Below, piece after piece: positions 1-13,773 of a stretch of DNA of 44,617 nucleotides. Both the position numbers and the translations under genes were made by a program. Within the stretch, counting starts at the first letter, position 1. Each line of letters begins with the position of its first letter. The notes under the pieces are model-generated. The model was given only the letters and a program-made list of their open reading frames with translations. It made no database searches and had not been told where the DNA came from. This stretch comes from a virus, in IMG/VR virus record IMGVR_UViG_3300022074_000096, positions 1 through 44,617 of that record; one strand, 5' to 3'.

Positions 1-30
1 ATCAATCATCTGTTCTTCAATCTTACGCAT
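1..30 (-). CDS. Conserved cyanophage hypothetical protein, N-terminal fragment
   Basis: Only ten codons lie inside the window, reading MRKIEEQMID from an ATG at 30. I remember a family of about 80-aa proteins in T4-like cyanophages that begins with MRxIExQM, so I call this a real gene cut by the window edge. The leader is AC-rich (CACAAACAAACAAAC before the ATG) and has no Shine-Dalgarno sequence. It follows repeat copy A by about 50 nt. Function is unknown. Confidence 0.5.
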   Translation of the reverse strand, partial: MRKIEEQMID

Positions 31-82
31 GTTTGTTTGTTTGTGAAATGAATTGGGATCGGTGGGTGTCCCTATGCTATAA

Positions 83-107
83 GGACACTTTGAAGGTGAG
101 TAACTTT
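83..107 (-). repeat. Intergenic repeat element, copy A
   Basis: First of eight copies. On the transcribed strand it reads AAAGTTACTCACC, then TTCAAAGTGTCC. It lies 15 nt after the TGA of the 75-aa gene. Only in this copy does the following sequence (TTATAGCATAG, then GGGACAC) allow a 6-bp stem between GTGTCC and GGACAC. The next start codon is about 50 nt further on, unlike copies B to E where the start follows directly. Confidence 0.8.
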
Positions 108-122
108 AATAGGTTGACAGAT

Positions 123-350
123 TCAAAGGTCAACACATGCCATTGACATGTAGCAATTCTCGCTGGCATACTTGATAACGCCATCGGAATCTTTTAATCC
201 AATGAAAGAAACTTGACCGTTGAAGCACTTAACATCAACAACCTCATATTGATTGTTGCTATCGTCTGCAACTTTGCATCCTTTAATCTGCTTCAGGATG
301 GACTTTGCTTTGATCGTATCGTCTTGGATCATCGTGGAAGTGTTCATCAT
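123..350 (-). CDS. Small hypothetical protein (75 aa)
   Basis: Unrecognised. The protein is mixed in composition, with three Cys near the middle and C-terminus and no membrane segment. Two adjacent ATGs (350 and 347) follow the sequence GGAGA; the second has better Shine-Dalgarno spacing. The start overlaps the TGA of the 64-aa gene, which suggests translational coupling. Repeat copy A follows the stop. Confidence 0.7.
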   Translation of the reverse strand: MMNTSTMIQDDTIKAKSILKQIKGCKVADDSNNQYEVVDVKCFNGQVSFIGLKDSDGVIKYASENCYMSMACVDL

Positions 351-541
351 TCTCCGTGAAAAGCAAAGTGTGCATCAACAACAAAATCAATCACGTCGTC
401 AGTTGCACTTACGTCGAAACGATCGCAGAACCAATCAACACAATCACCAGCAGGTAACATAGTGTCGAACATGAAGTCCTGAAGTTCCAAGAGTGCAATC
501 TCTTTAGTGTAAAGAGAGGAAAGAGGGTTTGTTTTGTTCAT
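347..541 (-). CDS. Small acidic hypothetical protein (64 aa)
   Basis: Unrecognised acidic protein with many Asp and Phe. Its ATG at 541 comes directly after repeat copy B (AAGTGTCC, TAGTTGT, ATG) and has no Shine-Dalgarno sequence. The stop overlaps the next start as ATGATGA. The tight fit between repeat and next gene supports the start. Confidence 0.7.
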   Translation of the reverse strand: MNKTNPLSSLYTKEIALLELQDFMFDTMLPAGDCVDWFCDRFDVSATDDVIDFVVDAHFAFHGE

Positions 542-548
542 ACAACTA

Positions 549-573
549 GGACACTTTAGAGGTGAGTAACTTT
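549..573 (-). repeat. Intergenic repeat element, copy B
   Basis: Type 1 copy. On the minus strand it runs from the TAA of the 56-aa gene, through AAAGTTACTCACC and TCTAAAGTGTCC, to TAGTTGT and the ATG at 541. Element plus spacer are the whole intergenic region. Confidence 0.85.
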
Positions 574-743
574 TAATCCAACAAATGTGGGTAGTATTCT
601 TTCGCCTCTTCTTTCAATTCATCGTCTGAATACTTACCATAACTTTCGTCCATATAATCATAAGCAAGTTGCATCAATCCATTCATGTCCATGTCATCCA
701 AGATATTTTGGATTAAGTTTTCTTGAAGTTCAGAACGATTCAT
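573..743 (-). CDS. Conserved cyanophage small acidic protein (56 aa)
   Basis: Starts at the ATG at 743 (MNRSELQENL). An in-frame upstream TTG would add 16 residues but would overlap the previous gene. The pattern of a Leu/Ile-rich helix, then AYDYMDESYGKYSDDEL, and a C-terminal EYYPHL matches a small family I remember from T4-like cyanophages. No function is known. The leader TTTTCACAAAAACTAAC resembles the AC-rich leader of the gene at the left edge. The stop TAA runs into repeat copy B. Confidence 0.75.
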   Translation of the reverse strand: MNRSELQENLIQNILDDMDMNGLMQLAYDYMDESYGKYSDDELKEEAKEYYPHLLD

Positions 744-778
744 GTTAGTTTTTGTGAAAAGAGAAATAAAGGACATAA

Positions 779-1045
779 TTAGCAGGCACAAGTAAGTGCG
801 CTATTGTAAAATTGAGGAATGGTGTGAAAGTCAACTACTTCATACCCAAATCCATGAACGCGACTATCAATCTCGCGATTCATTTCTTTGCGGTTGATGT
901 AACGCTTGCTGACGACGACTGGGTTCGGTCCATTGATACCGAAAGTCACAGTCTTGTAGATTAACTTTTCACTAATCGTTCCGTCCCAGTATTTGACAGG
1001 ATAAAAATCAACCTGAATAGTGTGCTCGGGGTGATACAGTTTCAT
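779..1045 (-). CDS. Hypothetical protein (88 aa)
   Basis: Starts at ATG 1045, two nt after the TGA of the 43-aa gene (TGATCATG), which suggests coupling. A TTG two codons upstream is less likely. The N-terminal half is beta-like (IQVDFYPVKYWDG) and the C-terminus ends in CAC. No family recognised. Confidence 0.7.
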   Translation of the reverse strand: MKLYHPEHTIQVDFYPVKYWDGTISEKLIYKTVTFGINGPNPVVVSKRYINRKEMNREIDSRVHGFGYEVVDFHTIPQFYNSALTCAC

Positions 1046-1047
1046 GA

Positions 1048-1179
1048 TCAAAGGTTGTTGATAGAATGTTGGATAGTTTGGTTGCGATCTTTGATAATTT
1101 GTGTCATGTTGCTATCTAACAATTCAATGCCAAGATTAGCACCAAGAATAACAAACAAGGCAAGAAAAAAGATTCGCAT
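1048..1179 (-). CDS. Small single-pass membrane protein (43 aa)
   Basis: Begins MRIFFLALFVILGANLGIEL: one positive residue, then about 17 hydrophobic residues, so a probable N-terminal membrane segment or uncleaved signal. The rest is polar (MTQIIKDRNQTIQHSINNL). It sits between two genes with gaps of 2 nt on each side, as a real operon member would. Function unknown. Confidence 0.6.
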   Translation of the reverse strand: MRIFFLALFVILGANLGIELLDSNMTQIIKDRNQTIQHSINNL

Positions 1180-1181
1180 GA

Positions 1182-1343
1182 TCAGTCGTAGGGAAAGAAT
1201 GAAGAAGTGGTGGATTCTGTTGTGTAAGGAACATTAAACTCTTCACCAAACATTTGGTAGTAAAGTTCACTGAAGATCGCAAAATCATCAGGTGTTTCGT
1301 AGTTCCAAACCTTTAAGATCTCGTTGTAGGTAGTGTCATTCAT
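1182..1343 (-). CDS. Small hypothetical protein (53 aa)
   Basis: Reads MNDTTYNEILKVWNYETPDD and ends FFPYD, with TGA at 1182. The ATG follows repeat copy C directly (TAGTTGT then ATG), exactly as for the genes after copies B, D and E, which is strong support for both the gene and its start. Acidic and aromatic-rich. Unrecognised. Confidence 0.65.
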   Translation of the reverse strand: MNDTTYNEILKVWNYETPDDFAIFSELYYQMFGEEFNVPYTTESTTSSFFPYD

Positions 1344-1350
1344 ACAACTA

Positions 1351-1375
1351 GGACACTTTGGAGGTGAGTAACTTT
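1351..1375 (-). repeat. Intergenic repeat element, copy C
   Basis: Type 1 copy, identical over the core to copies D and E (ACTCACCTCC, AAAGTGTCC). It fills the gap between the TGA of the ligase-like gene (1378) and the ATG of the 53-aa gene (1343). Confidence 0.85.
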
Positions 1376-1377
1376 AA

Positions 1378-2277
1378 TCAGGACCAACTTTTCTGAACGT
1401 TGAAGTTAGCATATGAAAATTCTTCGCGGTCAACTACCTTGAACATGCCATACTTATTTGTGATCACATAACCTTCATGAAACGTTTCATGTCCACAGAT
1501 GGAACATTCAATGTCGTCAGTTGAATGAATAAACAAGAACAAATCTGCTTTGATTGTTGCAACTAGCTTCCACAATCTGACTAGATTGATGTCACAGTCA
1601 GCAAAAACTGAAATTGCAAAATCATCCAATTCAGCACCATTGCGAATCATTGTGTTGATTGCTTTCTTGATCTTTGCTGCTTTCTTGTCATCTACAAATT
1701 CACACAATGTAGACATCTGACGTGCAAAATTGCAGACATCAGCAATATCTTCGCGGTCTTTAGTCAGCAACACTTTAGGTTGCACAAACTTGCAATAGTA
1801 AGTATCAGTAATCCGAAACTTCATCGGGGAAGCAACAGCATCACGCAAATCATTGTCCGCAGTGTAATAAGTATGCGGTGCAATAATGATTTCTTCAGTG
1901 ACTACATCCGGAAACTTGTATGTGATGGTATTTGGTGTGTAAGTGTCACTACCACCGAAACCAATGAAATCACCTTGAATAATTCCTTCAAAGTTGGGAA
2001 GATAATCAAGACAATGATGTAATATATCAGCAACAGATCCGGAATGATTGCAATCAATGTCAGCGTGTGATTCATTGATCTTGATCTTTACTTTGTTGAA
2101 GACAGATTTTGTCCCCACAAACTTGTTACCAGTCGCAGGATTAGTTCCCCAAACAATAGCAGGAGCACCATCCATTTTGGTGCTGATGAAACTATCGGAT
2201 TCAGAAAACCAATCCAGAACAGACAGATCGCCTGTCAGGATAGCATCTTCGGGGTGTTCGAGGTGGGTGTTCTTCAT
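1378..2277 (-). CDS. DUF6267-like protein with nucleotidyltransferase (ligase-like) motifs
   Basis: A 299-aa protein resembling a cyanophage family I remember as DUF6267. Near the N-terminus is TKMDGAPAIVWG with K34-x-D-G37, the KxDG form of motif I in ATP-dependent ligases and capping enzymes. Then come NKFVGTKSVFNK (about 51-62), EGIIQGDFIG (97-106), and near the end HEGYVI (267-272, like motif IV) and K275/K280 (like motif V). C258-x2-C261 could be half of a metal site. It is shorter than the family members I recall. The ligase-like reading is inference; a non-ligase nucleotidyl-binding role is equally possible. The ATG comes directly after repeat copy D. Confidence 0.7.
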   Translation of the reverse strand: MKNTHLEHPEDAILTGDLSVLDWFSESDSFISTKMDGAPAIVWGTNPATGNKFVGTKSVFNKVKIKINESHADIDCNHSGSVADILHHCLDYLPNFEGIIQGDFIGFGGSDTYTPNTITYKFPDVVTEEIIIAPHTYYTADNDLRDAVASPMKFRITDTYYCKFVQPKVLLTKDREDIADVCNFARQMSTLCEFVDDKKAAKIKKAINTMIRNGAELDDFAISVFADCDINLVRLWKLVATIKADLFLFIHSTDDIECSICGHETFHEGYVITNKYGMFKVVDREEFSYANFNVQKSWS

Positions 2278-2284
2278 ACAACTA

Positions 2285-2309
2285 GGACACTTTGGAGGTG
2301 AGTAACTTT
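2285..2309 (-). repeat. Intergenic repeat element, copy D
   Basis: Type 1 copy. It lies between the TAA of the 80-aa gene and the ATG of the ligase-like gene, with the core identical to copies C and E. Confidence 0.85.
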
Positions 2310-2552
2310 TTAATCGCTTAATCCTGAACCACGTTTGAACGCAGGTGGGTAGGGTCTGTCACCCATAACATACTCAACGTAGCGTAATGTATTGGGGTCG
2401 ATGTTACGAATGTCACGCCCTTCGCTTTCTGAATTGTAATACTCCCAAGAACCATATTTTTCAGGCGAATACCAAAAATCTTCCCAATCTTTTGGTGAAT
2501 TTGTGACATCTTTAATCATTAGAAAATCTCCGTGAAGCGTTGAAGTAATCAT
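2310..2552 (-). CDS. Hypothetical protein (80 aa, start uncertain)
   Basis: Rich in Trp, Tyr and Asp (DWEDFWYSPEKYGSWEYY). The ATG at 2552 is 4 nt after the preceding stop. An in-frame ATG at 2519 has a good Shine-Dalgarno (GGAG, 8 nt spacing) and would give 69 aa; that may be the true start. Unrecognised. Followed by repeat copy D. Confidence 0.7.
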   Translation of the reverse strand: MITSTLHGDFLMIKDVTNSPKDWEDFWYSPEKYGSWEYYNSESEGRDIRNIDPNTLRYVEYVMGDRPYPPAFKRGSGLSD

Positions 2553-2556
2553 GGTT

Positions 2557-2817
2557 TCAGTTCAGAATGTAAATGTAATCGATAGAATTTACACACCAAC
2601 CTGTGGCAGATGTAATCTCTTCCACAAGATCATCAGCATCACTTGCTTGCCAAGTTGTTGCTAGAACTTCATCAATAATTTCTTGACGATCTTCGGTGTC
2701 CATTACTTCTTCATCAAAGGAATCAGAATCAAAATCAAAGTCAATCTCAGTTACACGAAATTGCATTGGTTTGTAGATAGAAAGTTTACGAAGTTGGCGA
2801 TTAGTGTCAGCGAACAT
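2557..2817 (-). CDS. Conserved cyanophage acidic protein (86 aa, start uncertain)
   Basis: The stretch MQFRVTEIDFDFDSD, an acidic middle and TGWCVNSIDY at the end match a small protein family I remember from many T4-like cyanophages. ATG 2817 follows the upstream TGA closely (TGATTATG). An internal ATG at 2766 would begin at MQFRVTEI, where I recall homologues starting. Function unknown. Confidence 0.75.
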   Translation of the reverse strand: MFADTNRQLRKLSIYKPMQFRVTEIDFDFDSDSFDEEVMDTEDRQEIIDEVLATTWQASDADDLVEEITSATGWCVNSIDYIYILN

Positions 2818-2819
2818 AA

Positions 2820-3173
2820 TCAAAGATACAGGAAAGAACCGTAAGCATCACAAATGTGAGGATTATCTGCCAACTGAGTGATCAGATAGCGGACATACTT
2901 AGCAGGTGCTTTGTATGATGCTGGTTTGTAACATTCGCCAGTGTTCTTGTCAACGAACATCCAGCAAGAACGTCCTCTCATTCTGTTATCATCATCAGAA
3001 AGATAAGACCAAACTTTGATATATTTACGACCAATCTCCATCTCAAGTTGAGTGTAAACAGAACGACCAGATTCAATGGAACTGACTTTCCATTCATTGT
3101 TCAGCACTTCAATAAGTGCTTCGGTCAGGAATTGTGGTCTAGTTTGTGTAATTGTCATTTTAGTGCTGTTCAT
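2820..3173 (-). CDS. Conserved cyanophage hypothetical protein (117 aa)
   Basis: Contains IGRKYIKVWSYL, a Ser/Cys/Trp stretch, then FVDKNTGECYKPASYKAPAK, a pattern I remember in an about 110-aa cyanophage family that ends GGYLYK or similar (here GSFLYL). No function known. The ATG at 3173 follows repeat copy E directly and has no Shine-Dalgarno. Confidence 0.8.
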   Translation of the reverse strand: MNSTKMTITQTRPQFLTEALIEVLNNEWKVSSIESGRSVYTQLEMEIGRKYIKVWSYLSDDDNRMRGRSCWMFVDKNTGECYKPASYKAPAKYVRYLITQLADNPHICDAYGSFLYL

Positions 3174-3180
3174 ACAACTG

Positions 3181-3205
3181 GGACACTTTGGAGGTGAGTA
3201 ACTTT
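3181..3205 (-). repeat. Intergenic repeat element, copy E
   Basis: Type 1 copy between the TGA of the helicase gene (3207) and the ATG of the 117-aa gene (3173). Its core matches C and D exactly; the spacer before the ATG is CAGTTGT in place of TAGTTGT. Confidence 0.85.
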
Positions 3206-3206
3206 G

Positions 3207-4403
3207 TCATCGACGAATTTCACTGATGGCAGGTTGTCCCTGATTGAACACAACATCAACAACTGCCTGAACTTTTTTGGCAGTACTGATACCAACTGTG
3301 TCGTAGGTAGGAATACAAACAAGACCAAAAGTCTTCTCAGTGCTACCCAAACGAATCACACGACCGATTGACTGACTGATGCCAATATAGTCCATGTTAC
3401 GCATGAAGATAACTGCTTCAAGACCAGACACATTGATACCTTCAGACAAGATACTGTGATGAATAACTACAAATTTCTTGTCAGGATCACGACCCCAAGT
3501 GTTCAACGTGTCGAAGAACTTTTCACGGTCAACCTTCTTGCCGTCAATGATTGCACCAGTCTTGGATGTGATAGTCATCCAAGAATAACCACGTTGATAC
3601 AACTCAGCACAGAAGTCTGATTGTGATAGAAGGTTGATAATCTGCTTAGTTGTACGGGCACAGATCAAAGTTTTATCGATGTTGTTGTCATCAATCGTTT
3701 CAATCAAGTTGTCACAATCATCAGCATACATGACCTTACGACCTTTGATCATAGGCAGTTGCTTGACTACAACTTTGGGTGGAAGAATGTAACCCTGTTC
3801 AACTAACTCAGGTGCAGGAACATTGACCAAGACCTGACCATAAACAGATCCATCATTCATCCCAGGTTTAGAAACAGTAAGAGAATGTTTAGGAGTAGCA
3901 GTGAAGAAGTAGCAACGATCAGCAACAGCAGCAAAGTGTTCTGTAGAAGGGAAAAAGTTTCTTTGCACGCTGTTATGTGCTTCGTCAAAGTAAATCGTAT
4001 TGACTTCAACATCTGCCTCCTGAATACGATGTAAGGAGTGATATGTGGTGAAGATGATAACATTCTCACCAGCAGTCCTTGCTGTATTTACGAACAGATT
4101 GATATTTTCTACATTTGTTGTAGAGAAGTGTGACGTTTCACCACTGTGAACGTGCATCACATGCGTATATGCAGTATCAATTACTTCCAAAAATTCACTG
4201 CACAACTGTTCAGCAAGAAGTATGCGGGGAGCAACAACAACAGTGGTAAGACCACACTTAGATTGTTGAGAATGTGCGGTATCTTGAATCATGCACATTG
4301 TTTTGCCACCACCAGTGGGAACAATCACCTGACCTTTGTTGTAGTTACGCATACGATCAAGGATGCGAATCTGATGCGGACGAAGTGTAATCAATGGGGT
4401 CAC
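3207..4403 (-). CDS. SF2 DEAD/DEAH-type helicase
   Basis: A 398-aa ATP-dependent helicase of the restriction-enzyme/UvsW-like superfamily 2 type. Visible motifs: a Q-like region LRPHQIRIL (7-15), Walker A PTGGGKT (29-35), motif II DEAH (140-143), motif III TATP (168-171), and motif VI QSIGRVIRLG near the C-terminus. The likely role is branched DNA or RNA remodelling in phage replication or repair; the family does not fix the substrate. The start is GTG at 4403. A strong stem-loop and repeat copy F lie upstream. It is shorter than T4 UvsW and I see no additional domain, so I do not assign that symbol. Confidence 0.9.
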   Translation of the reverse strand: MTPLITLRPHQIRILDRMRNYNKGQVIVPTGGGKTMCMIQDTAHSQQSKCGLTTVVVAPRILLAEQLCSEFLEVIDTAYTHVMHVHSGETSHFSTTNVENINLFVNTARTAGENVIIFTTYHSLHRIQEADVEVNTIYFDEAHNSVQRNFFPSTEHFAAVADRCYFFTATPKHSLTVSKPGMNDGSVYGQVLVNVPAPELVEQGYILPPKVVVKQLPMIKGRKVMYADDCDNLIETIDDNNIDKTLICARTTKQIINLLSQSDFCAELYQRGYSWMTITSKTGAIIDGKKVDREKFFDTLNTWGRDPDKKFVVIHHSILSEGINVSGLEAVIFMRNMDYIGISQSIGRVIRLGSTEKTFGLVCIPTYDTVGISTAKKVQAVVDVVFNQGQPAISEIRR

Positions 4404-4430
4404 AGTGGGTTGATACCTAAAGATAATAAT

Positions 4431-4461
4431 AGCACCCTTACAGACGCTTGTAAAGGGTGCT
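4431..4461 (-). terminator. Strong stem-loop upstream of helicase
   Basis: AGCACCCTT(T)ACA pairs with TGTAAGGGTGCT around a 6-nt loop (AGCGTC): 12 bp with one bulged T. The tract after it on the minus strand is ATTATTATCTTT, so it is U-rich but without a pure U run. It may be a terminator, an attenuator or an mRNA-protecting hairpin. It lies between repeat copy F and the helicase GTG. Confidence 0.6.
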
Positions 4462-4478
4462 GACGATGCTTACACTAT

Positions 4479-4505
4479 GGATACACTTCCAAGGTGAGTA
4501 ACTTT
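4479..4505 (-). repeat. Intergenic repeat element, copy F
   Basis: Type 2 copy: AAAGTTACTCACC, then TTGGAAGTGTATCC and ATAGTGTAAGCA. It starts at the TAA of the basic 220-aa gene. Unlike type 1 copies, it is followed by the strong stem-loop at 4431-4461, not by a start codon. Confidence 0.75.
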
Positions 4506-5167
4506 TAGATGCCTGCTTTTACTGCCTTATGTGCAAGTCCCAGAAGTTTTGTGCGTTCTGCACCCTTTGGTGCGCGACCATTCTTCTCAGTGAAGTCCCG
4601 AACTAATTCTGCTTTCTTTAACTTAAGTGCTGCACCTTTTTCTTTGTTTCTAGCAGAATCACGTTCCTTTCTTGTCATTCCACTACCACCGTCAGTTTTC
4701 CAATTACGGCGTGGTGTTGATGACTTTTTAAGTTCTTCTTTCTTCTTAGCTGCTAACAGTTTATCTGCTTGTTTTTCTACATCTTGTGATGCTTTTGCTA
4801 CAGAACTTTTTGCTACCTTATCACTACCACCAGATGCTTTTGCTGCTGCCCGTGCTCTTGCTGCTGCAATTCTACGTTCTTTAGTTTTGTCAGTATATGA
4901 CTTTTTAACTTCAACACTACCACGTTCCTGCTCAGGTTGTTGTTCGCGTGTGCTTCTTTGTCTTTGTGTTCCAATATCTTTACGATCCTTATATGGCGCT
5001 GCTGGTGCCATTTTACCACCACCAACTGCCTTCATTCTGCGGCGTTCAGGTTCACTTTTTCTTCTATCAGCACCCACACGTCCACCTTCACCAGTCTTGC
5101 TAATCTGTGAACGATCCATGACATCTTTGTCATAGACTTCAGTAATAAACTGAATGTACGTCTTCAT
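4505..5167 (-). CDS. Highly basic, low-complexity protein (220 aa), possible virion protein
   Basis: I choose the ATG at 5167 (MKTYIQFITEVYDKDVM) because a terminator lies between it and the preceding gene; reading upstream would cross that hairpin. The opening MKTxxxFxxE resembles the leader of several cyanophage virion proteins I remember, followed by TGEGGRVGADRRKSEPERR. The rest is Lys/Arg/Ala-rich and probably disordered or helical (residues about 60-200), which suggests nucleic-acid contact. No catalytic motif is visible. A GGAG lies about 15 nt upstream inside the terminator stem. Confidence 0.7.
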   Translation of the reverse strand: MKTYIQFITEVYDKDVMDRSQISKTGEGGRVGADRRKSEPERRRMKAVGGGKMAPAAPYKDRKDIGTQRQRSTREQQPEQERGSVEVKKSYTDKTKERRIAAARARAAAKASGGSDKVAKSSVAKASQDVEKQADKLLAAKKKEELKKSSTPRRNWKTDGGSGMTRKERDSARNKEKGAALKLKKAELVRDFTEKNGRAPKGAERTKLLGLAHKAVKAGI

Positions 5168-5176
5168 TCTATCTGC

Positions 5177-5210
5177 AAAAAATCTCCTACTATTTAGAAT
5201 AGCAGGAGAT
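5177..5210 (-). terminator. Rho-independent terminator
   Basis: Stem ATCTCCTGCTATT / AATAGTAGGAGAT (13 pairs, one G-U) with loop CTA, followed on the minus strand by six T. It lies just after the stop of the 73-aa gene (5221). This is the best intrinsic terminator in the left half. Confidence 0.85.
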
Positions 5211-5220
5211 TGATATAATA

Positions 5221-5442
5221 TCATTCTTCTTCTTGTTCCTTTTCTTTTTCCTTAGTCACTTTAGGTCCAACTTGCACACGTCCAGTCTCATAAAACCATG
5301 CAACACGTTCCCTTCGTGCTTGCATCAACATATCATATTGTTGCTGTTGATCCTTTGTCAAGCGAAAATCTTGATCTTTCCAAGTCTTACGCAGTTCTGC
5401 AAGGTGTGCAAGCACGTTGACAGTTTCAGTAGGAAAATTCAT
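5221..5442 (-). CDS. Charged hypothetical protein (73 aa)
   Basis: ATG at 5442 (MNFPTETVNVLAHL) follows the preceding TGA by one base. A TTG four codons upstream would overlap that gene. It is helical and charged, with a Gln run (DQQQQYDMLMQARRER) and a Lys/Glu-rich tail. Unrecognised. A terminator follows. Confidence 0.7.
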   Translation of the reverse strand: MNFPTETVNVLAHLAELRKTWKDQDFRLTKDQQQQYDMLMQARRERVAWFYETGRVQVGPKVTKEKEKEQEEE

Positions 5443-5443
5443 T

Positions 5444-5581
5444 TCAGTAGTCAATGTTGGAGTTTAGATAATCGTTGATGTTAAGTTTTTCTGGGTCTTG
5501 AATAAGATCTTCAAGATCTTCTTCCATGTAGTCAAAGTTTACAAGTTCTTCAACTTGTTGTTCTGTCAGGTAGTTGTCCAT
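5444..5581 (-). CDS. Small acidic protein (45 aa)
   Basis: Reads MDNYLTEQQVEELVNFDYME, then a Leu/Asp/Glu stretch and QDPEKLNINDYL. It is strongly acidic and helical. It lies between repeat copy G and the 73-aa gene, with a one-base gap to the latter. I remember similar small proteins in cyanophages, with unknown function. Confidence 0.65.
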   Translation of the reverse strand: MDNYLTEQQVEELVNFDYMEEDLEDLIQDPEKLNINDYLNSNIDY

Positions 5582-5600
5582 AGTGTGGTGCTTACGTTAC

Positions 5601-5628
5601 TGATACACTTTAGAGGTGAGTAATATTT
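5601..5628 (-). repeat. Intergenic repeat element, copy G
   Basis: Type 2 and the most diverged copy: AAATATTACTCACC, then TCTAAAGTGTATCA and GTAACGTAAGCAC. It begins at the TAA of the 48-aa gene and ends about 20 nt before the ATG of the 45-aa gene. Confidence 0.7.
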
Positions 5629-5773
5629 AACTTACGTGAGTTTCAAAGTCTTTGCAACCATTTTTCTTCATTAGTTCTTCCCAAAAAACTGCATCTTCAA
5701 TCTTGAAGAATGTTGCCTTCTGTGTTGCAAATCCTTTCTTTTTCGGTTGTTGGTAGATAACTTGGTACTTCAT
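5627..5773 (-). CDS. Conserved cyanophage small basic protein (48 aa)
   Basis: Reads MKYQVIYQQPKKKGFATQ, then KATFFKIEDAVFWEELM. I remember this as a small conserved cyanophage protein (MKYQV...KKGFATQKATF). The ATG at 5773 lies inside the end of the overlapping 78-aa frame. No function known; the stop merges with repeat copy G. Confidence 0.75.
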   Translation of the reverse strand: MKYQVIYQQPKKKGFATQKATFFKIEDAVFWEELMKKNGCKDFETHVS

Positions 5774-5933
5774 TCCAGTGACGAATTACTCCGCCGATAA
5801 TAAAACAATTAGTAATAAGATAAGATACAAATATAATACTGCGTATGAGAACCACATAGTTATCATATGGTTCTGTTTTATCATCGCTAAAACTTCCTAA
5901 TGAATACTTCCATATCTTCAAGAGTTCCCGCAT
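5697..5933 (-). CDS. Small membrane protein (78 aa), possibly extended at its C-terminus
   Basis: ATG 5933 gives a polar N-terminus with the phrase SLGSFSDDKTEPYDNYVV, then a hydrophobic segment (SIIFVSYLITNCFIIGGVI) and HW. I remember cyanophage membrane proteins with this layout that end shortly after HW. Here the frame continues for about 25 residues and overlaps the 48-aa gene by 77 nt. A lost stop codon, or simply a longer form, could explain this. It also overlaps the end of the upstream gene by 47 nt. Confidence 0.55.
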   Translation of the reverse strand: MRELLKIWKYSLGSFSDDKTEPYDNYVVLIRSIIFVSYLITNCFIIGGVIRHWNEVPSYLPTTEKERICNTEGNILQD

Positions 5934-6159
5934 TTTTATTCTTTCTAGTTTTAACGTATTCTAACTCGTCCCAACACCATTTTTGACACACAAGCAAGCA
6001 ATGTGTTTTTTCGTGAATAGGACAATGTTTTATATTTTCATCATTCTTACACTTTACACTAAGTTCAATACTGATATATTCTGGACAGGTAAAATATACC
6101 CAACCTTCATGTTCTTTCCATGCAACATAATCATTTACCTGTGGAACATAGTGAATCAT
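5887..6159 (-). CDS. Conserved cyanophage hypothetical protein (90 aa)
   Basis: Contains VNDYVAWKEHEGWVYFTCPEY and CPIHEKTHCLLVC, with five Cys and several His that could bind a metal. I remember relatives in cyanophages built around DYVxW...HEGWVYF...YITIEI. The start overlaps the end of the 103-aa gene. No function is known. Confidence 0.75.
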   Translation of the reverse strand: MIHYVPQVNDYVAWKEHEGWVYFTCPEYISIELSVKCKNDENIKHCPIHEKTHCLLVCQKWCWDELEYVKTRKNKNAGTLEDMEVFIRKF

Positions 6160-6467
6160 AGAAACGCCGCTTCTAATGGATTTAGATTTAACTGCATTGC
6201 AGTATAGGGGCGAGTATCACTAATGTCTACCACATTTCCTACCTTATTGAAGTTGATGGGGGCGTGGTAAGTCTTCTTACTGCTTCCATTCTTTCCTGTC
6301 GTTTTAACAAATCCCCATACACATTTAGGTGCAACATTAGTATAGGAGAAAGCACCATCATTGACAATGCAAATGCGTAAAACATTACGTCGAAACGATT
6401 CAACTTCATAATGATAACCTTTAGGTGGTTGATGTGGAAAATCAGGGGGCAGTTGTAACTGGTTCAT
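6156..6467 (-). CDS. Conserved cyanophage hypothetical protein (103 aa)
   Basis: I choose ATG 6467 (MNQLQLPPDFPHQPPKGYHY); the longer frame would overlap the upstream gene by 83 nt. The Pro-rich start, RRNVLRICIVN, YHAPIN, and the C-terminal PYTAMQLNLNPLEAAF match a conserved T4-like cyanophage family I remember. No function is known. It overlaps the upstream gene by 26 nt. Confidence 0.8.
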   Translation of the reverse strand: MNQLQLPPDFPHQPPKGYHYEVESFRRNVLRICIVNDGAFSYTNVAPKCVWGFVKTTGKNGSSKKTYHAPINFNKVGNVVDISDTRPYTAMQLNLNPLEAAFL

Positions 6468-6672
6468 CGTCAACACAAATAGATTCGTAATCTGGATACA
6501 TTGTAGTGACAATATACATCGCAAGTGCTGATGTAGGTGCCGTTACATAAACCTCCACATTGTATATGTGAAACTCACCCGGCGTTTCTTGCATAGAAAG
6601 TTCTAACTCAACACGCCAAACATTACCTTTTTTGATGTGCTCTTTCCATCCAACAGTCATGTCAGGTTTCAT
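6442..6672 (-). CDS. Conserved cyanophage hypothetical protein (76 aa)
   Basis: A beta-rich protein: WRVELELSMQE, HIYNVEVYVTAPTSALAMYI, MYPDYESICVDDEPV. I remember cyanophage relatives with the MYPDY...VDDEPV ending. The start overlaps the upstream TGA as ATGA, so it is probably coupled. Function unknown. Confidence 0.75.
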   Translation of the reverse strand: MKPDMTVGWKEHIKKGNVWRVELELSMQETPGEFHIYNVEVYVTAPTSALAMYIVTTMYPDYESICVDDEPVTTAP

Positions 6673-6908
6673 GTAGTAAACTCCTCCACAATCTCGGATT
6701 GATGGTCATTAGCTAACTGAAATGTTGGTGCTTTCATAATGTTTTCACGCAGGCGATTGTAATACTTTTCATTGAATCCATCATCTTCATCAACAATTAG
6801 ATCAAAACATTCATCATCATGTTCTGCAACAACATTCCAGATTCCTCCATACTCAGATGTAGGAAATGGAACAAAATGATCAACAATGTAGAAAAATTTG
6901 GGTGCCAT
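6669..6908 (-). CDS. Conserved cyanophage hypothetical protein (79 aa)
   Basis: Begins MAPKFFYIVDHFVPFPTSEY and contains ECFDLIVDEDD; it ends VEEFTT. This matches a well-conserved small cyanophage family I remember. AAGGAG lies 16 nt upstream of ATG 6908, rather far for a Shine-Dalgarno. The 61 nt before it, down to the 38-aa gene, hold no convincing gene. Confidence 0.8.
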   Translation of the reverse strand: MAPKFFYIVDHFVPFPTSEYGGIWNVVAEHDDECFDLIVDEDDGFNEKYYNRLRENIMKAPTFQLANDHQSEIVEEFTT

Positions 6909-6969
6909 CGGTTTCAGTAAATTACTCCTTAATTTTAGTGTAAATGTTGTTGCTGGTCAAGTAGTTATG

Positions 6970-7086
6970 TCAGGAACAGAAAAACTCCAGCATGTAATAA
7001 TCAACAGTCACTTCAAGTTTTGCTGCTTCCTTTTCGACCTCTTCCCAAAACTCATCTGCAGTTTCTTCGATTTCTTTCTGTGTCAT
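6970..7086 (-). CDS. Small conserved protein (38 aa)
   Basis: Reads MTQKEIEETADEFWEEVEKE, then AAKLEVTVDYYMLEF. It is acidic and mostly helical. I remember a near-identical small protein in cyanophages. The start overlaps the preceding TGA as ATGA. No function is known. Confidence 0.7.
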   Translation of the reverse strand: MTQKEIEETADEFWEEVEKEAAKLEVTVDYYMLEFFCS

Positions 7087-7265
7087 TTTGGTTTGTTGAT
7101 GAAACGGTCAAATCTGGACATTTGATAACCTTCACGCAACGCTTGGTTGATGATGTTATCGTATGAATGTGAATGCAGTGGTATATGTCGATGCAAAAGA
7201 AAGTCTTCACAATCTTCTGCTAGTGCCTCCTTTTGTTCGTGGGTAATTTTCTCCAAGTCTAACAT
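7083..7265 (-). CDS. Small hypothetical protein (60 aa)
   Basis: ATG 7265 (MLDLEKITHEQKEALAEDCE) follows the stop of the 93-aa gene by 7 nt, with GGAG about 12 nt upstream. His-rich middle (LLHRHIPLHSHSYD), which may bind metal. Unrecognised. Confidence 0.65.
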   Translation of the reverse strand: MLDLEKITHEQKEALAEDCEDFLLHRHIPLHSHSYDNIINQALREGYQMSRFDRFINKPK

Positions 7266-7272
7266 AGTTCGT

Positions 7273-7554
7273 TTAGATCTCCATATATGCCCAACGATCA
7301 ATGTTGGATTTGTAATATGTATTGATAATATCTGTTGCCACTATACAACACTCAGTATCCCTAAGTCCATACAAATCAAAACCACTGGCACAAGCAAACT
7401 CATAGAAGCGTTTTTGCGCATAACGGGGGCTAGTTGTTGTCTGTAAGATTTCAAGAAGGGTGGAATTGATCTCATCGATAACAAAGTCAGGAGTGCTTCT
7501 GTAGCACTCCCATTCTTTACGATTGACTGTAAGTTGTTCGCGTTCAATAATCAT
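7273..7554 (-). CDS. Hypothetical protein (93 aa)
   Basis: Helical protein with a Cys/Phe-rich segment (FYEFACASGFDLYGL) and two adjacent Cys (DTECCIVATDI). The start overlaps the upstream TGA (ATGA). No family recognised. Confidence 0.7.
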   Translation of the reverse strand: MIIEREQLTVNRKEWECYRSTPDFVIDEINSTLLEILQTTTSPRYAQKRFYEFACASGFDLYGLRDTECCIVATDIINTYYKSNIDRWAYMEI

Positions 7555-7922
7555 GCTGCAAGTGCTCCAGAAGGAATTTCAACGATTTCAGGATCGTTAT
7601 CGTTAAACTCGTTCATATTATAGCAAGTCCAACCTGCGCTGGTAAAAATATATGCGTACTCTTCATTACGAAGTTTGTCCAGATACTCTTTCTTCGTCAT
7701 CAAACTAGGAGGACAATCTGTCCCATAATACTCAGGTTTGTGGTCATCATTCCAACATGTAGACATGTCGCCACCATCAATCAGATCGGATACTTTATCC
7801 TTGCTGTTGAAATGTGTGGTCAAAATACGACCCAACCAGGAAGGATAACCATCCCAGTGATGATAAACAGACAGGACAGAATTGTCTTGAAGTTGAATAC
7901 CGATGCGGGAACGTGTTGCCAT
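7551..7922 (-). CDS. Conserved marine-phage protein (123 aa), MATRSRIG family
   Basis: Begins MATRSRIGIQLQDNSVLSVY and continues HHWDGYPSWLGRIL, with LIDGGDMSTCW in the middle. I remember this as a very widespread protein in T4-like cyanophages and other marine phages; its function is unknown to me. The HHWDGYP segment could be a metal or substrate site. The ATG lies about 25 nt downstream of repeat copy H. Confidence 0.85.
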   Translation of the reverse strand: MATRSRIGIQLQDNSVLSVYHHWDGYPSWLGRILTTHFNSKDKVSDLIDGGDMSTCWNDDHKPEYYGTDCPPSLMTKKEYLDKLRNEEYAYIFTSAGWTCYNMNEFNDNDPEIVEIPSGALAA

Positions 7923-7946
7923 GCTGGTTGTGTGCTTACACTATGA

Positions 7947-7971
7947 GGACACTTTAGAGGTGAGTAACTTT
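7947..7971 (-). repeat. Intergenic repeat element, copy H
   Basis: Type 2 and the rightmost copy: AAAGTTACTCACC, TCTAAAGTGTCC, TCATAGTGTAAGCAC. It starts at the TAA of the 58-aa gene (7971). I saw no further copy from 8 kb to the end of the window. Confidence 0.85.
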
Positions 7972-8147
7972 TAAGACTGCACTTCTGGTTTATCTAATGC
8001 AAACATCATGTCGGTAACACTTTCCCTAAACTCCATAGCAACTTGAGATAACTCAGATGCTGGAAGATTTGTTTGCACAAGATTACCTTCAACCATAATG
8101 TTAAAGGTTCCGTCTTGATTCAAAATGACAGTGAATTGATTAAGCAT
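7971..8147 (-). CDS. Small hypothetical protein (58 aa)
   Basis: ATG 8147 (MLNQFTVILNQDGTFNIMVE) lies one base after the preceding TGA (TGATATG). A beta-like N-terminal half is followed by a helix (MEFRESVTDMMFAL). Unrecognised. The stop joins repeat copy H. Confidence 0.65.
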   Translation of the reverse strand: MLNQFTVILNQDGTFNIMVEGNLVQTNLPASELSQVAMEFRESVTDMMFALDKPEVQS

Positions 8148-8148
8148 A

Positions 8149-8388
8149 TCAAATAGGAAGTTTAGCGACTGATTTACCCTTACTGTGTTTTGCAATAAAG
8201 TTCATTGCAGATTTACGATTACGACAAATTTTAAGTTGTTTACCTTGATGAATGATCATTAGTTTTGTATCACTGTCGCCCATAGGAATGGCAGCATACA
8301 TGAGTGGGTCAGAGTATTTTCCCACAGTGAATCCCGTTTCTACTGATTTGGGTTCAAGAATAGAACTATTGGTAGATTGAAACTTCAT
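8149..8388 (-). CDS. Small basic hypothetical protein (79 aa)
   Basis: Central strands (KLMIIHQGKQLKICR) and a basic C-terminus (NRKSAMNFIAKHSKGKS). The basic tail may contact nucleic acid, but I recognise no family. The start overlaps the upstream TGA as ATGA. Confidence 0.65.
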   Translation of the reverse strand: MKFQSTNSSILEPKSVETGFTVGKYSDPLMYAAIPMGDSDTKLMIIHQGKQLKICRNRKSAMNFIAKHSKGKSVAKLPI

Positions 8389-9002
8389 CGAATAAACTTG
8401 TGAGTAACATCTGCTTTTTCAAGATCTGATTCCCGGAATTTCACATATGCACTATGATGAAAATCATTCAAAGAGTTCCATTTGTCCTTAAGATTAAATG
8501 CAACTGCTTGTAACCGATTAGCAGGAAGAGAACGAAGATAATTTAGATCAAGAATACGCACCCATTCAACAACCATACTCTTTCCAACATATTTTACATA
8601 TGCAACATAATCATATCTTTCATTCATAATCTTGCCAGGTTTGATACCTTTGGCAGCGTATTCACCCAAACATTCAAGGATTTCAGATAAATTATATCCC
8701 ATATTTTGGAATACTTTTAGATCCTTATTCATCTGGTTCACTTGTTTCCAGAATTTTGGATGATCTCTTTTACCACCAGGAAGAACACAAGATTCAGTGT
8801 GATTCAATACGGAGATAAAATCTACGAAAAGTGAGTCACTGCTTGTATATTGAACATCAACGGTGCCTAGATCTGTGATGATGTCTACATCCAGATGGTT
8901 CACAACATTGTTCTTGATTGGTGTGATGTCCTCCCGTAAGTTGGAACGAACATAGTTTTCGGAGTGTTTAACTCGGCGTTCAGTGTAAGAAGAAGTACGC
9001 AT
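8385..9002 (-). CDS. Hypothetical protein (205 aa), gene between methyltransferase and small ORFs
   Basis: The N-terminal half contains HLDVDIITDLGTVDVQY followed by FVDFISV; this alternation of acidic residues with strands vaguely recalls PD-(D/E)xK nucleases, but the lysine is replaced by Gln and I cannot assign it. The C-terminal half is helical (VAFNLKDKWNSLNDF). Located directly downstream of the methyltransferase gene (gap 2 nt), so a linked role in DNA modification is possible but unproven. Confidence 0.7.
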   Translation of the reverse strand: MRTSSYTERRVKHSENYVRSNLREDITPIKNNVVNHLDVDIITDLGTVDVQYTSSDSLFVDFISVLNHTESCVLPGGKRDHPKFWKQVNQMNKDLKVFQNMGYNLSEILECLGEYAAKGIKPGKIMNERYDYVAYVKYVGKSMVVEWVRILDLNYLRSLPANRLQAVAFNLKDKWNSLNDFHHSAYVKFRESDLEKADVTHKFIR

Positions 9003-9004
9003 GA

Positions 9005-9724
9005 TTAAAAAAGTGATTCAAGTGGTCCAGGTGAATTGCCATCAGCAACTCCATTCCATGTCTGTTCTATTTTTTCTTCTCCCATCCCAGTGACCCAGGA
9101 CTCTGCCAGTGTAGCATACTTTTCGTCCAAATCACACCCGATGAAATTTCTTTTTGTTCCTTTACATGCCATTGCAGTTGTACCAGAACCCATGCAAGGG
9201 TCAAGAACTGTATCACCAGGATTTGTAGACGCTTTAATAATTCTAGCAAGCAACTTGATCGGTTTGGGTGTTGGATGATGCTTTACTGACTTTTCGATTG
9301 ATTCACGCCAAACGGAAGAAGAACAATGTTCATTGAATGTTGCTTTTGATTTTCTTGCAAAGACACAACATTCTAACGAAGACAACCAAAACTTATCACC
9401 ATGAACTGGTGCAGGATTAGTCTTCTCCCAAATACACAAACGTGTAGAAAGTCCTGCCTTTGCATATTCACTGCGAAGTTGACTTACTTGTTCTGTAGAA
9501 CAGAACACATAGATGCTACCAGATGTGACACGAATAGTTTCATCAATAAAAGATTGCAAATCAAATGTTAAAACATCTGCCTTACCTTTATTGTACTCAC
9601 GAATACCGCATTCATAATTGTTAACAACATCATATGGAATATCAGTCAATGTCATTGTGACACTATTATCTTCCAATCCTTCCATGAAGGTGATGCAATC
9701 AACATTGTGAAATTCTAGAGTCAT
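9005..9724 (-). CDS. Site-specific DNA methyltransferase (beta-class, N6-A/N4-C type)
   Basis: A 239-aa amino-methyltransferase. The catalytic motif IV appears first as TDIPY (27-31) and the AdoMet-binding motif I comes late as LDPCMGSGTT (about residue 175), an order typical of the beta class. HPTPKPIKLL, just before motif I, is also typical. The Pro of the usual DPPY is Ile here. No cognate endonuclease is adjacent, so it is probably a solitary phage methyltransferase used to evade host restriction or mark phage DNA. A TATAAT box with extended TGG lies just upstream. Confidence 0.9.
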   Translation of the reverse strand: MTLEFHNVDCITFMEGLEDNSVTMTLTDIPYDVVNNYECGIREYNKGKADVLTFDLQSFIDETIRVTSGSIYVFCSTEQVSQLRSEYAKAGLSTRLCIWEKTNPAPVHGDKFWLSSLECCVFARKSKATFNEHCSSSVWRESIEKSVKHHPTPKPIKLLARIIKASTNPGDTVLDPCMGSGTTAMACKGTKRNFIGCDLDEKYATLAESWVTGMGEEKIEQTWNGVADGNSPGPLESLF

Positions 9725-9738
9725 ATCTTTTTTCTTTT

Positions 9739-9747
9739 ATTATACCA
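9739..9747 (-). promoter_or_regulatory. Possible extended -10 promoter for the methyltransferase
   Basis: On the minus strand TGGTATAAT, a TGn extended -10 with perfect TATAAT, ends 15 nt before the methyltransferase ATG. It overlaps the stop of the 71-aa gene (GTA TAA). There is no good -35 at 17 nt. The leader would be only about 7 nt, with purine-rich AGAAAAAAG serving as ribosome site. Confidence 0.4.
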
Positions 9748-9955
9748 CATCTGGAATAGGTGTATATTCAAATCCATAATCAGGATCATTTTTAGATTTC
9801 TTTCTTACTTTTTTCAAGGCTTTAAGTTCTTCCTTGATCATTTGATAAGCATCCTCAGCATTGATTCTGCCTCCAAGTTCCATGGCACAGACAACTTCAA
9901 CACGGGTGCCAAAGTGCTTCAGTGCTTCTTCAAAACAATTTAATTCTTCGTACAT
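9740..9955 (-). CDS. Conserved cyanophage small protein (71 aa)
   Basis: Begins MYEELNCFEEALKHFGTRVE and contains AEDAYQMIKEELKALKKVRK. This helical protein matches a small conserved cyanophage family I remember. Function unknown. It starts 9 nt after the TGA of the 52-aa gene. Confidence 0.8.
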   Translation of the reverse strand: MYEELNCFEEALKHFGTRVEVVCAMELGGRINAEDAYQMIKEELKALKKVRKKSKNDPDYGFEYTPIPDVV

Positions 9956-9964
9956 AGCATGACC

Positions 9965-10123
9965 TCATTGATACATTCGATGACATAACATCTCTATTTT
10001 TTCTTTTAGTTTCTTATGTTTTACCCCTGGAAAATCGATTTGCTCACCTCTAGCAATAGTATAATTAGTGGCACAAGATAAAACATAATTAAGATACTTA
10101 AGTTCCTGGGATGTGAAATTCAT
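9965..10123 (-). CDS. Small hypothetical protein (52 aa)
   Basis: Reads MNFTSQELKYLNYVLSCATN, then an ARGEQIDF segment and a basic helix (KHKKLKEKIEMLCHRM). ATG 10123 overlaps the end of the 70-aa gene by 4 nt; TGA at 9965. The fit between two genes supports it. Unrecognised. Confidence 0.65.
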   Translation of the reverse strand: MNFTSQELKYLNYVLSCATNYTIARGEQIDFPGVKHKKLKEKIEMLCHRMYQ

Positions 10124-10332
10124 TTGAAACCTTTTGATTTCTTTTTCTTATCTAGCACTTCAATATGAGAAAGGAACATCTTTTTGTTCCACCATATCTC
10201 CCTTGCCATCATGTAATCTTCCACGACTATAGATTCACCATTTTTTGATACCACACGGTAATGATGTCGATCATAATCATCATAAGATGATTGCTCAAAA
10301 TATCGAGGATCATTGGGTCTAATCAGTTCCAT
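10120..10332 (-). CDS. Conserved cyanophage hypothetical protein (70 aa)
   Basis: ATG 10332 begins MELIRPNDPRYFEQSSYDDY and continues HHYRVVSKNGESIVVEDYMM; HIEVLDK is near the end. I remember relatives in cyanophages with RPNDPxYxxxSSxDDYDxHxYRVV. An upstream in-frame TTG at 10362 would overlap the GT25 stop. Function unknown. Confidence 0.75.
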   Translation of the reverse strand: MELIRPNDPRYFEQSSYDDYDRHHYRVVSKNGESIVVEDYMMAREIWWNKKMFLSHIEVLDKKKKSKGFK

Positions 10333-10358
10333 GTCAATTAAAGTTATGTATGTTGTCG

Positions 10359-11189
10359 TCAATCTTCATTTGTTTCCCAATACCTTGCATTTTTGAATCG
10401 CATAAACCAATCAAAGTCTAAGTTTGGACCATTCTTTTTCCACCAATTATACACAAAATCAGAACTATGAATTTGACCATTCTTTCGGTCTTCTTCTATG
10501 AATTTAGGATAAAAAGTTGACTTAAAGTTTATATTTTCAACAAACAAAGGTATTGTGTATTCAAACGGTCTTGCACCAACATATAACATATTCTCAATGC
10601 AAGGAAAAACCTCACTATGGTCAAGAAGATCTGTATTTAATACATTTTCTTCCGGAATATGATTAGCGACTAATCTTTCTGCATATCCACGGGTCATCAT
10701 ATATGCTCCCGCAGACCAATTATACCATGTTCTTCTACGAAAGCGAAGATCCTTCTCATCTAAAGCAATTTCGGCATCATCAGTTTTGATTAGAGATAGT
10801 TGAATGACTTGCCATCCAGGTTCCTTCTCATTAACCTTTTCCATGATATCATCCCATGTGAAATTCCAAAAATGACACGTATTCAAATTCATGTCATCTT
10901 CAAAAAATACAGCAGTAGGACTATCAGATGTTTGCAACCAATACTTAATAGCATACATATGCGAAAGCATCGTAGCAATCACACCAGAATCAAATTGCCC
11001 ATGAAAGTGATCAAAACGATGTCTAATATCTACTGTTTCACAAAAATCTACGTTTCTACCATCAAATGCAATAAATTTGGTGTAATCCTTTACACCAAAA
11101 GACTCTAACTGATTTTCCATTACCTCCTGTCTTAGTTTAGAATCTTCAAGTGTAATGTAATAAACAGGAGGAAAATTATCTAACTTCAT
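10359..11189 (-). CDS. GT25-family glycosyltransferase
   Basis: A 276-aa protein with the GT25 (LPS galactosyltransferase/procollagen glycosyltransferase) opening PPVYYITLEDSKLRQEVM followed by FGV and AFDGR. The acidic metal/nucleotide-sugar motif AVFFEDDMNL lies near residue 98, and SAGAYMMTRGYAERL after it is also typical of the family. Members transfer a hexose to glycan or protein. In a phage it may modify virion proteins, DNA or host envelope glycan; the acceptor is unknown. It lies in the accessory block, not among the fibre genes. Confidence 0.85.
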   Translation of the reverse strand: MKLDNFPPVYYITLEDSKLRQEVMENQLESFGVKDYTKFIAFDGRNVDFCETVDIRHRFDHFHGQFDSGVIATMLSHMYAIKYWLQTSDSPTAVFFEDDMNLNTCHFWNFTWDDIMEKVNEKEPGWQVIQLSLIKTDDAEIALDEKDLRFRRRTWYNWSAGAYMMTRGYAERLVANHIPEENVLNTDLLDHSEVFPCIENMLYVGARPFEYTIPLFVENINFKSTFYPKFIEEDRKNGQIHSSDFVYNWWKKNGPNLDFDWFMRFKNARYWETNED

Positions 11190-11191
11190 TC

Positions 11192-11389
11192 TTAATGCCA
11201 GCGCAAACTGTTAAGATATTTTAGCACATCTTGTCGTACATCCATCAGTTCATGATAACAACGTTGATTGTGAGCACACTGTCGCAAAGATGGATCTGGT
11301 TTAAGAACTGACTCTACAAATAGATCCAACCCTCGATTCCATTTGTCTTGTTTACTTTCATTGTCATTAATTGTGTTTTGGTCGTGCAT
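11192..11389 (-). CDS. Small hypothetical protein (65 aa)
   Basis: ATG 11389 (MHDQNTINDNESKQDKWNRG), then a helix and CAHNQRCYHELMDVRQDV, with two Cys and three His. The longer in-frame extension would overlap the upstream gene by 83 nt, so I prefer this start (23-nt overlap). Unrecognised. Confidence 0.65.
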   Translation of the reverse strand: MHDQNTINDNESKQDKWNRGLDLFVESVLKPDPSLRQCAHNQRCYHELMDVRQDVLKYLNSLRWH

Positions 11390-11540
11390 GAAAATTACAT
11401 CCTTTTGTAGAATCTTTAACAGTTTCGATAAGTTCAATCCTTTGTTCAAGATTAAATATATCTTTTCGTTTTTGAATACGTGAAATTATATCACGGGCAT
11501 CGTTACAACTTAATTCAGTGCTTAACAGAAGTTCTAGCAT
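11367..11540 (-). CDS. Conserved cyanophage small protein (57 aa)
   Basis: ATG 11540 (MLELLLSTELSCNDARDIIS) and RIELIETVKDST match a small cyanophage family I remember (LLSTxLTCxDA...ELVxTVxDST). The start shares its A with the preceding stop (TAATG). Function unknown. Confidence 0.75.
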   Translation of the reverse strand: MLELLLSTELSCNDARDIISRIQKRKDIFNLEQRIELIETVKDSTKGCNFHARPKHN

Positions 11541-11746
11541 TAAATCCTTTCCCAATGATCGTCTGAAGCTTCACTCATCCAGAAATGATAATTACCATTG
11601 ATGGATGCTAGAAACACCCGACCATCTTTACGTTGCTCAACACGACATGAATGTAACCCGTGCATAAGATTAGCAAATCTATTCTTTGCTTTCTTAGACA
11701 TAGGACGAACGCAAATGAATTCAGTTTTGGTCTTAGTGTTGCTCAT
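11540..11746 (-). CDS. Conserved cyanophage small basic protein (68 aa)
   Basis: ATG 11746 (MSNTKTKTEFICVRPMSKKA) then NRFANLMHGLHSCRVEQ and NGNYHFWMS match a small conserved cyanophage family I remember. Basic, possibly nucleic-acid binding; function unknown. The 60 nt upstream, to the metallopeptidase stop, hold only a weak inverted repeat (AACCC/GGGTT). Confidence 0.75.
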   Translation of the reverse strand: MSNTKTKTEFICVRPMSKKAKNRFANLMHGLHSCRVEQRKDGRVFLASINGNYHFWMSEASDDHWERI

Positions 11747-11806
11747 GATTACTTTAGTATTTAAGAGTTTTCTTATCAACCCTAGCAAAGGTATTCTACA
11801 GGGGTT

Positions 11807-12274: not shown

Positions 12275-12359
12275 TGATAGCAAGCGAAGTTACACGGGTC
12301 CCCCAGTTCATCAACCAGAAGAACGAAGCAATGAAAATCAGTTTTTGTGTGGCAGTCAT
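12261..12359 (-). CDS. Tiny membrane peptide (32 aa)
   Basis: Reads MTATQKLIFIASFFWLMNWG, then TRVTSLAINALT: a single hydrophobic helix with almost no soluble part. AGGGGGA lies directly before the ATG at 12359. It is the first gene after the nested terminator at 12.4 kb and overlaps the metallopeptidase gene. It could be a small envelope peptide; the function is unknown and the gene may be spurious. Confidence 0.5.
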   Translation of the reverse strand: MTATQKLIFIASFFWLMNWGTRVTSLAINALT

Positions 12360-12373
12360 TCCCCCTGCGTGTC

Positions 12374-12424: not shown

Positions 12425-12445
12425 CTTGTTAAAACGGCACAAATA

Positions 12446-13762: not shown

Positions 13763-13773
13763 TTTTTACTCCA

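Follow-up and report, generated by a model that had tools for sequence, protein, structure and literature searches.

The linear IMG/VR record IMGVR_UViG_3300022074_000096 (44,617 bases; the window, here the whole record) raises the question of what is done by a short DNA element that recurs at one gene-to-gene junction after another near its left end. The gene content of the window points to a T4-like cyanophage: the megablast matches of the left block are almost without exception myoviruses of Synechococcus or Prochlorococcus, mainly via a helicase gene, and its surroundings match the small-gene region that lies between the tail-fibre and baseplate genes in S-SM2 and SynMITS9220M01. The original prediction, made from the letters of the window, described eight elements of ~25 nt, likened them to the mobile early-promoter/stem-loop cassettes (PeSLs) of T4-type coliphages, and offered a promoter, a processing or translation signal, or a recombination site as possible functions. 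Here we argue, with a probability of about two in three, that the elements are phage-activated promoter cassettes in which the -35 is replaced by an activator box private to each phage.

The element is 43 nt long and is present in eight copies (A to H, Table 1), all on the minus strand, which also carries every likely gene in the window, at gene-to-gene junctions within 0.07-7.98 kb and nowhere else in the window. The eight predicted cores are all present at the coordinates given for them and in one orientation, and those of C, D and E are indeed identical. Scanned with a 43-column weight matrix derived from relatives, the whole window yields these eight sites and no others (scores 41-60), and no score rises above 0 in 20 shuffled windows. 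A separate repeat finder also has the eight elements as its largest repeat family, and both results bear out the predicted absence from 8 to 44.6 kb. The word TTACTCACCT, which forms the left part of each copy, occurs exactly 8 times in the window, and the 25-nt core has no further match there at up to 8 mismatches on the minus strand and a single weak match, with 8 mismatches, on the plus strand. The size of ~25 nt was an underestimate, the conserved unit running from ~8 nt before the word to ~13 nt past the core. The copies start at or near the stop codon of the upstream gene as described, except for A, which begins 16 nt past it, and the distance of ~7 nt to the next start codon does not hold for A, F, G and H, where it is 20-80 nt.

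The element has two parts and is numbered here from the first T of TTACTC as position 0. All element-bearing phages have the right half, AAAGTGTCCCTATAGTRTRAGCA, in common, and the left 10-nt word (positions 0-9) is TTACTCACCT in the window, GGGGGGTCGC in S-SM2 and one of ~20 others elsewhere. The word is preceded by an A/T-rich stretch (positions -8 to -3) that often contains the stop codon of the upstream gene, and is followed by AAAGTGTCCC at positions 12-21, TATAGTRT or AGTAGTRT at 22-29, and RA(g)CA at 30-34. Positions 22-27 read TATAGT in many phages and AGTAGT in the TTACTCACCT group; TAGT at 24-27 is almost invariant, and C7, A12-A14, G17, T24, T27 and T29 are near-invariant across all phages.

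The two halves also vary differently. The mean distance of the 10-nt word is 0.60 within loci versus 5.0 between loci, and that of the 18-nt right half is 1.99 versus 3.39; by these figures the word, the part least alike between phages, is therefore the most uniform part within a phage. In loci with at least three copies, 21 of 968 copies have a word that differs from that of their own locus by at least 4 of 8 nt. One word stands ahead of many unrelated gene families, and one family can follow many words (148 downstream clusters). Being uniform per genome and diverse between genomes, the word therefore fits recognition by one factor per genome.

The original prediction had proposed a search of relatives, and the element family is widespread in uncultured cyanomyoviruses. 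An exact-pattern scan of IMG/VR returned at least 100 stretches with the element, S-SM2 carries a second version, AAAGGGGGGTCGCCTAAAGCGTCCCTATAGT, at the same junctions, and a scan with the common right half uncovered many additional versions. The right-half matrix gave 1482 matches at a score of 14 versus 1 in reversed sequence; after duplicate removal there were 1138 distinct copies in 280 loci, which are not all independent phages because some share a contig. Among isolates the element was found in a few only, namely S-SM2, SynMITS9220M01, and S-B43 and its relatives (one or two copies); single-cell amplified viruses also carry it. The copies cluster elsewhere as they do in the window: all 12 words of S-SM2 lie within 42.7-58.5 kb of its 190.8 kb, and all 15 copies of a 222.6-kb contig lie at 45.5-60.9 kb. 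Among GTDB genomes the sole exact match is on the Flavobacteriales metagenome-assembled genome contig CAJQPE010000082.1 (L530, 311-331, minus strand), which may be phage contamination or chance.

The evidence for a promoter comes largely from the right half. A search of IMG/VR at large, beyond cyanophages, for TTGM-N19-TATANTGTAAGCA (a 17-bp spacer) found 97 distinct sites, 50 of them with the full TTGACA, whereas a control with a 21-bp spacer found 63 sites, with TTGACA outside the five commonest hexamers; this enrichment points to TATANTGTAAGCA as a sigma-70 -10/start module in this register. Orthologs of genes that follow the element can have the module behind a -35 instead of the word: the DUF6267 gene of S-SRM01 is preceded by TTGCAG-N17-TATACT-GTAAGCATCAACAC, with the -35 where the word would be, and a relative of the gene following element H (locus L637) by TTGACA-N17-TATAGT-GTAAGCA. 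Positions 22-34 would therefore act as a sigma-70 -10/start region, with the word at the place of the -35. The gap between the word and TATAGT at 22-27 is 12 bp, and in T4 the MotA box lies 12 +/- 1 bp from the -10 (PMC2988021). ATGs that are not fused to the element occur from position 42 onward, most often at 45-48, and are almost absent from 31-41, as expected if the RNA starts near 34. We also count in favour of the promoter reading that all copies are on the same strand in 224 of 224 loci with at least two copies, that 541 of 564 copies have a same-strand upstream open reading frame (ORF) ending at most 60 nt away and 556 of 564 are followed by a downstream ORF, and that standard sigma-70 promoter calls in window positions 1-9000 fall at none of the element copies. 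In diverse viral contigs (loci L531-L650), TTGACA-N17-TATANT promoters frequently have GTAAGCA right behind the -10, perhaps as a preferred start region.

In the mechanism that we propose, T4-like cyanophages would carry, in their hyperplastic block of small genes, a separate phage-activated promoter for every gene or small operon, used early or in the middle of infection. Positions 22-29 would form the sigma-70 -10 region, with the predicted RNA start close to the conserved CA at 33-34, and positions 0-9 would stand in for the -35 as the box of a phage-encoded activator that, like MotA, recruits the host RNA polymerase. Co-evolution with its activator would make the box private to each phage. 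Copies would move with the downstream gene and so form homologous seams for gene exchange between phages, and imported foreign-word copies, which are rare, would presumably be converted to the resident word or lost. We would give even odds to a more general proposal, in which many lineages of T4-like cyanophages each have a promoter 'password' of their own, recognised by a rapidly diversifying phage activator, amounting to a MotA-independent form of middle transcription in which box and activator co-evolve. If this is true, newly acquired genes would be expressed only once their box becomes the resident word.

The cassette behaviour foreseen for the element is visible in gene order, with upstream neighbours varying more at element junctions than elsewhere. 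The same downstream gene has the same upstream neighbour in 20% of cases at element junctions versus 35% at other junctions in the block (bootstrap 95% interval of the difference 0.07-0.20), and in the reverse direction the downstream neighbour is the same in 30% versus 37%. From this asymmetry it follows that the element tends to stay with its downstream gene. As a correlation, the element is a seam of gene shuffling, a property that it shares with PeSLs. Single foreign-word copies are found in otherwise uniform loci (six TAGGATCG copies and one TACTCACC copy in L040, and six CTGGGGCC copies and one TACTCACC copy in L113) and look like recent imports, with a gene-level origin that is not always clear.

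Several observations weigh against the promoter reading, above all an ATG at position 28, which opens the downstream ORF in 494 of 1054 copies (47%) and was in frame with the longest ORF in 245 of 256 copies of an earlier subset. With an RNA start near 34 this codon, 6 nt before the start, would be missing from the RNA. A second in-frame ATG follows at 40-58 in 259 of the 494 copies (in element E, 15 nt past the first); genes such as DUF6267 mostly have none, and ATG-28 genes of this kind would therefore need read-through RNA. The DUF6267 N-terminus MKNTHLEHPED is conserved even in element-free phages, and starts at position 28 in most phages and copies and at 43 in other phages. The ATG-28 genes point either to read-through translation, or to an earlier RNA start, or to an element that also acts at the RNA level, and it is because of them that we hold the promoter reading at the probability given above and retain an RNA-level role as an unlikely rival. 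In the TTACTCACCT group the -10 frequently reads AGTAGT, and copies B-E carry AGTTGT/TTGTAT, in each case matching TATAAT poorly. A MotA-type model does not explain why the spacer AAAGTGTCC is so strongly conserved.

The search for an activator also counts against a phage-activated promoter, in that covariation of words and proteins, both within the block and between SynMITS9220M01, S-SM2 and four large contigs, did not find its gene. The top covariation clusters consisted of methyltransferase mixtures, epimerases or wrong-frame ORFs, none convincing as the cognate factor. One cluster (c46; L273 at 1370, L016, L453 and L115) is a cyanophage protein of ~200 aa with a C-terminus that is AbrB/MazE-like by eye; it could be a regulator, though its variation did not follow the word. 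Neither motA nor asiA is annotated in S-SM2 or SynMITS9220M01, as judged from annotations only, no profile search having been made. Cyanomyoviruses have been reported to lack both genes, and their early/middle control was described as unclear (PMC2984593).

The start codons at position 28 lend themselves to an RNA-level leader, transcribed from upstream, whose private word would be read by a phage protein that binds RNA or cuts it (RegA-like, or a processing enzyme) and so controls or frees the next start. Such a translation or processing signal is kept as a rival because about half of the copies have an ATG directly following at a fixed position, mostly in frame; the two start positions of DUF6267 and the presence of RegA in cyanomyoviruses also speak for it. 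However, the conserved unit reaches position 34 even when the start codon is more distant, and TTGACA-N17 sigma-70 promoters have the same right end. The word and the right half neither pair nor covary (mutual information at most 0.13), for which reason a hairpin or cruciform was rejected, an apparent GGGACGC/GCGTCCC stem being confined to the GGGGGGACGC group, and Rfam covariance models have no match in window positions 1-14000. A guide RNA encoded elsewhere was dismissed since the S-SM2 genome has neither the 9-nt word nor its complement outside the element block. Pairing of TTACTCACCT with 16S rRNA, suggested by a complementarity of GTTACTCACC, was dropped because other phages have unrelated words at the same place.

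Rivals acting at the DNA level are less probable still. The element shares its asymmetry, single orientation, many copies in short intergenic gaps and lineage-specific sequence with the stoperators of Cluster A mycobacteriophages, and could form an operator array where binding of a phage repressor or termination factor silences or stops transcription at each junction. This is improbable: Cluster A stoperators are genome-wide and lack a conserved -10/start module, whereas the element is restricted to one block and its common part resembles a -10/start region that a stoperator does not need; moreover, these T4-like phages are not known to be lysogenic. A recombination or integration site for swapping accessory genes, with no role in expression, would fit the neighbour shuffling and the foreign-word copies, but homology between copies explains shuffling equally well, and a fixed strand, a -10/start module and a zone free of start codons are not required of it, which makes this reading very doubtful. 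We would put equally little weight on ordinary early promoters of the host sigma-70 type that were duplicated together with their genes, need no trans factor and have a uniform word only by gene conversion. They would share the -10/start module, but the element has no -35 match, and gene conversion should level the adjacent right half equally, yet this half varies more than the word within a genome (0.11 versus 0.06 differences/nt) and differs much less between genomes. A promoter for a T7-like single-subunit RNA polymerase, considered for a partial T3/T7 likeness, was dropped since any plausible start would lie too far downstream of the variable word.

Among known systems, T4 middle promoters, which combine a MotA box with a sigma-70 -10 and work by sigma appropriation, are like the element in architecture, with a phage box that replaces the -35 at 12 bp upstream of a sigma-70-like -10 and many copies per genome. 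Unlike them, the element has a strongly conserved spacer and ~20 words, private to each phage and none TGCTT-like. By its architecture it would work like a T4 middle promoter, yet it falls outside that class, since its box does not have the required sequence and there is no known MotA. The likeness to PeSLs, and to the start-associated sequences described below, is one of genomic behaviour only. PeSLs are likewise short intergenic regulatory cassettes in hyperplastic, gene-shuffled regions (PMC4503421), but the element has no sigma-70 -35, has a phage-private word and lacks a stem-loop terminator, a terminator-like hairpin adjoining copy F only in window positions 1-9000. The original interpretation thus stands in part: a promoter marking exchangeable cassettes is supported by the recurrence of the sigma-70 -10/start module, the neighbour shuffling and the foreign-word copies, and the comparison with PeSLs carries over to the shuffling seam.

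The start-associated sequences (SAS) and extended SAS (ESAS) of Cluster K mycobacteriophages are also repeats at gene starts, in one orientation and in a non-structural region, and ESAS have a subcluster-specific consensus that was read as differing DNA-binding specificity (PMC3203893). Their sequences are unrelated, ESAS are inverted repeats and the element is not, and the SAS arrangement of GGGATAGGAGCCC with the Shine-Dalgarno sequence AGGAG by the start codon differs from the consensus of the element, which has no AGGAG between word and ATG. The Class I/II intergenic repeats of halovirus HF2 were shown to carry promoters (PMC8707807), but these serve archaeal machinery and are conserved across the genus instead of being virus-private. 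The new twist of the element is the joining of a constant sigma-70-like half to a phage-private recognition word. No published description was found in a literature search that did not include the main Syn9 transcriptome and the primary PeSL papers, and a prior description is possible.

Cyanomyoviruses are among the most abundant ocean viruses, and their early/middle control without MotA/AsiA has been called unclear (PMC2984593); more than 1000 promoter-like elements with a constant and a private half are direct targets for 5'-end mapping. Word-specific DNA baits offer a way to fish out the putative factor, the catalogue permits testing whether promoter 'passwords' limit which genes can be exchanged, and the words provide a simple tag by which genome fragments can be placed in phage lineages.

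Table 1. Element copies and other features, with positions in the window unless another locus is given.
Feature	Position	Strand	Details
Element A	69..111	-	Word TTACTCACCT at 94-103; -10-like TATAGC at 76-81
Gene after element A	start near 53		MRKIEEQMID...; continues past window edge
Element B	535..577	-	Word 560-569; ATG at position 28 (541-539) opens ORF 347-541
Element C	1337..1379	-	Word 1362-1371; ATG at position 28 opens ORF 1182-1343
Element D	2271..2313	-	Word 2296-2305; ATG-28 opens ORF 1378-2277 (DUF6267, phrog_455)
Element E	3167..3209	-	Word 3192-3201; ATG-28 opens ORF 2820-3173 (DUF7717)
Element F	4467..4509	-	Word 4492-4501; leadered type (GTAAGCA); then hairpin and helicase ORF 3207-4403
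Element G	5589..5631	-	Word 5614-5623; leadered type; next ATG near 5580 (MDNYLTEQQ...)
Element H	7933..7975	-	Word 7958-7967; leadered type; next gene ORF 7551-7922 (MATRSRIGIQLQDN...)
Hairpin	4431-4456	-	AGCACCCTTTACA...TGTAAGGGTGCT
DNA methyltransferase gene	9005-9724	-	phrog_67
Glucosyltransferase gene	10359-11189	-	phrog_2835
2223-aa ORF	25234-31905	-	Dense short repeats
S-SKS1 junction repeat	L484 6186, 6781, 6943-6964, 7183-7204, 8397		TAAGTAACACTTACTCA...CACTAACTAACACTTTTTT

The hairpin in Table 1 separates element F from the helicase gene, and a hairpin is also present at the equivalent junction in SynMITS9220M01 (L125, past the element at 16419) and S-SM2 (past the element at 51.93 kb). 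S-SKS1 has no element and instead carries its own junction repeat, which starts with a stop codon and stands ahead of an ATG, and which may answer the same need in another way. Directly past the element block of the window lie the genes of a phage DNA methyltransferase and a glucosyltransferase. Further to the right, the 2223-aa ORF, in which TTGAAGACC occurs many times on the plus strand, probably encodes a collagen-like G-X-Y structural protein.

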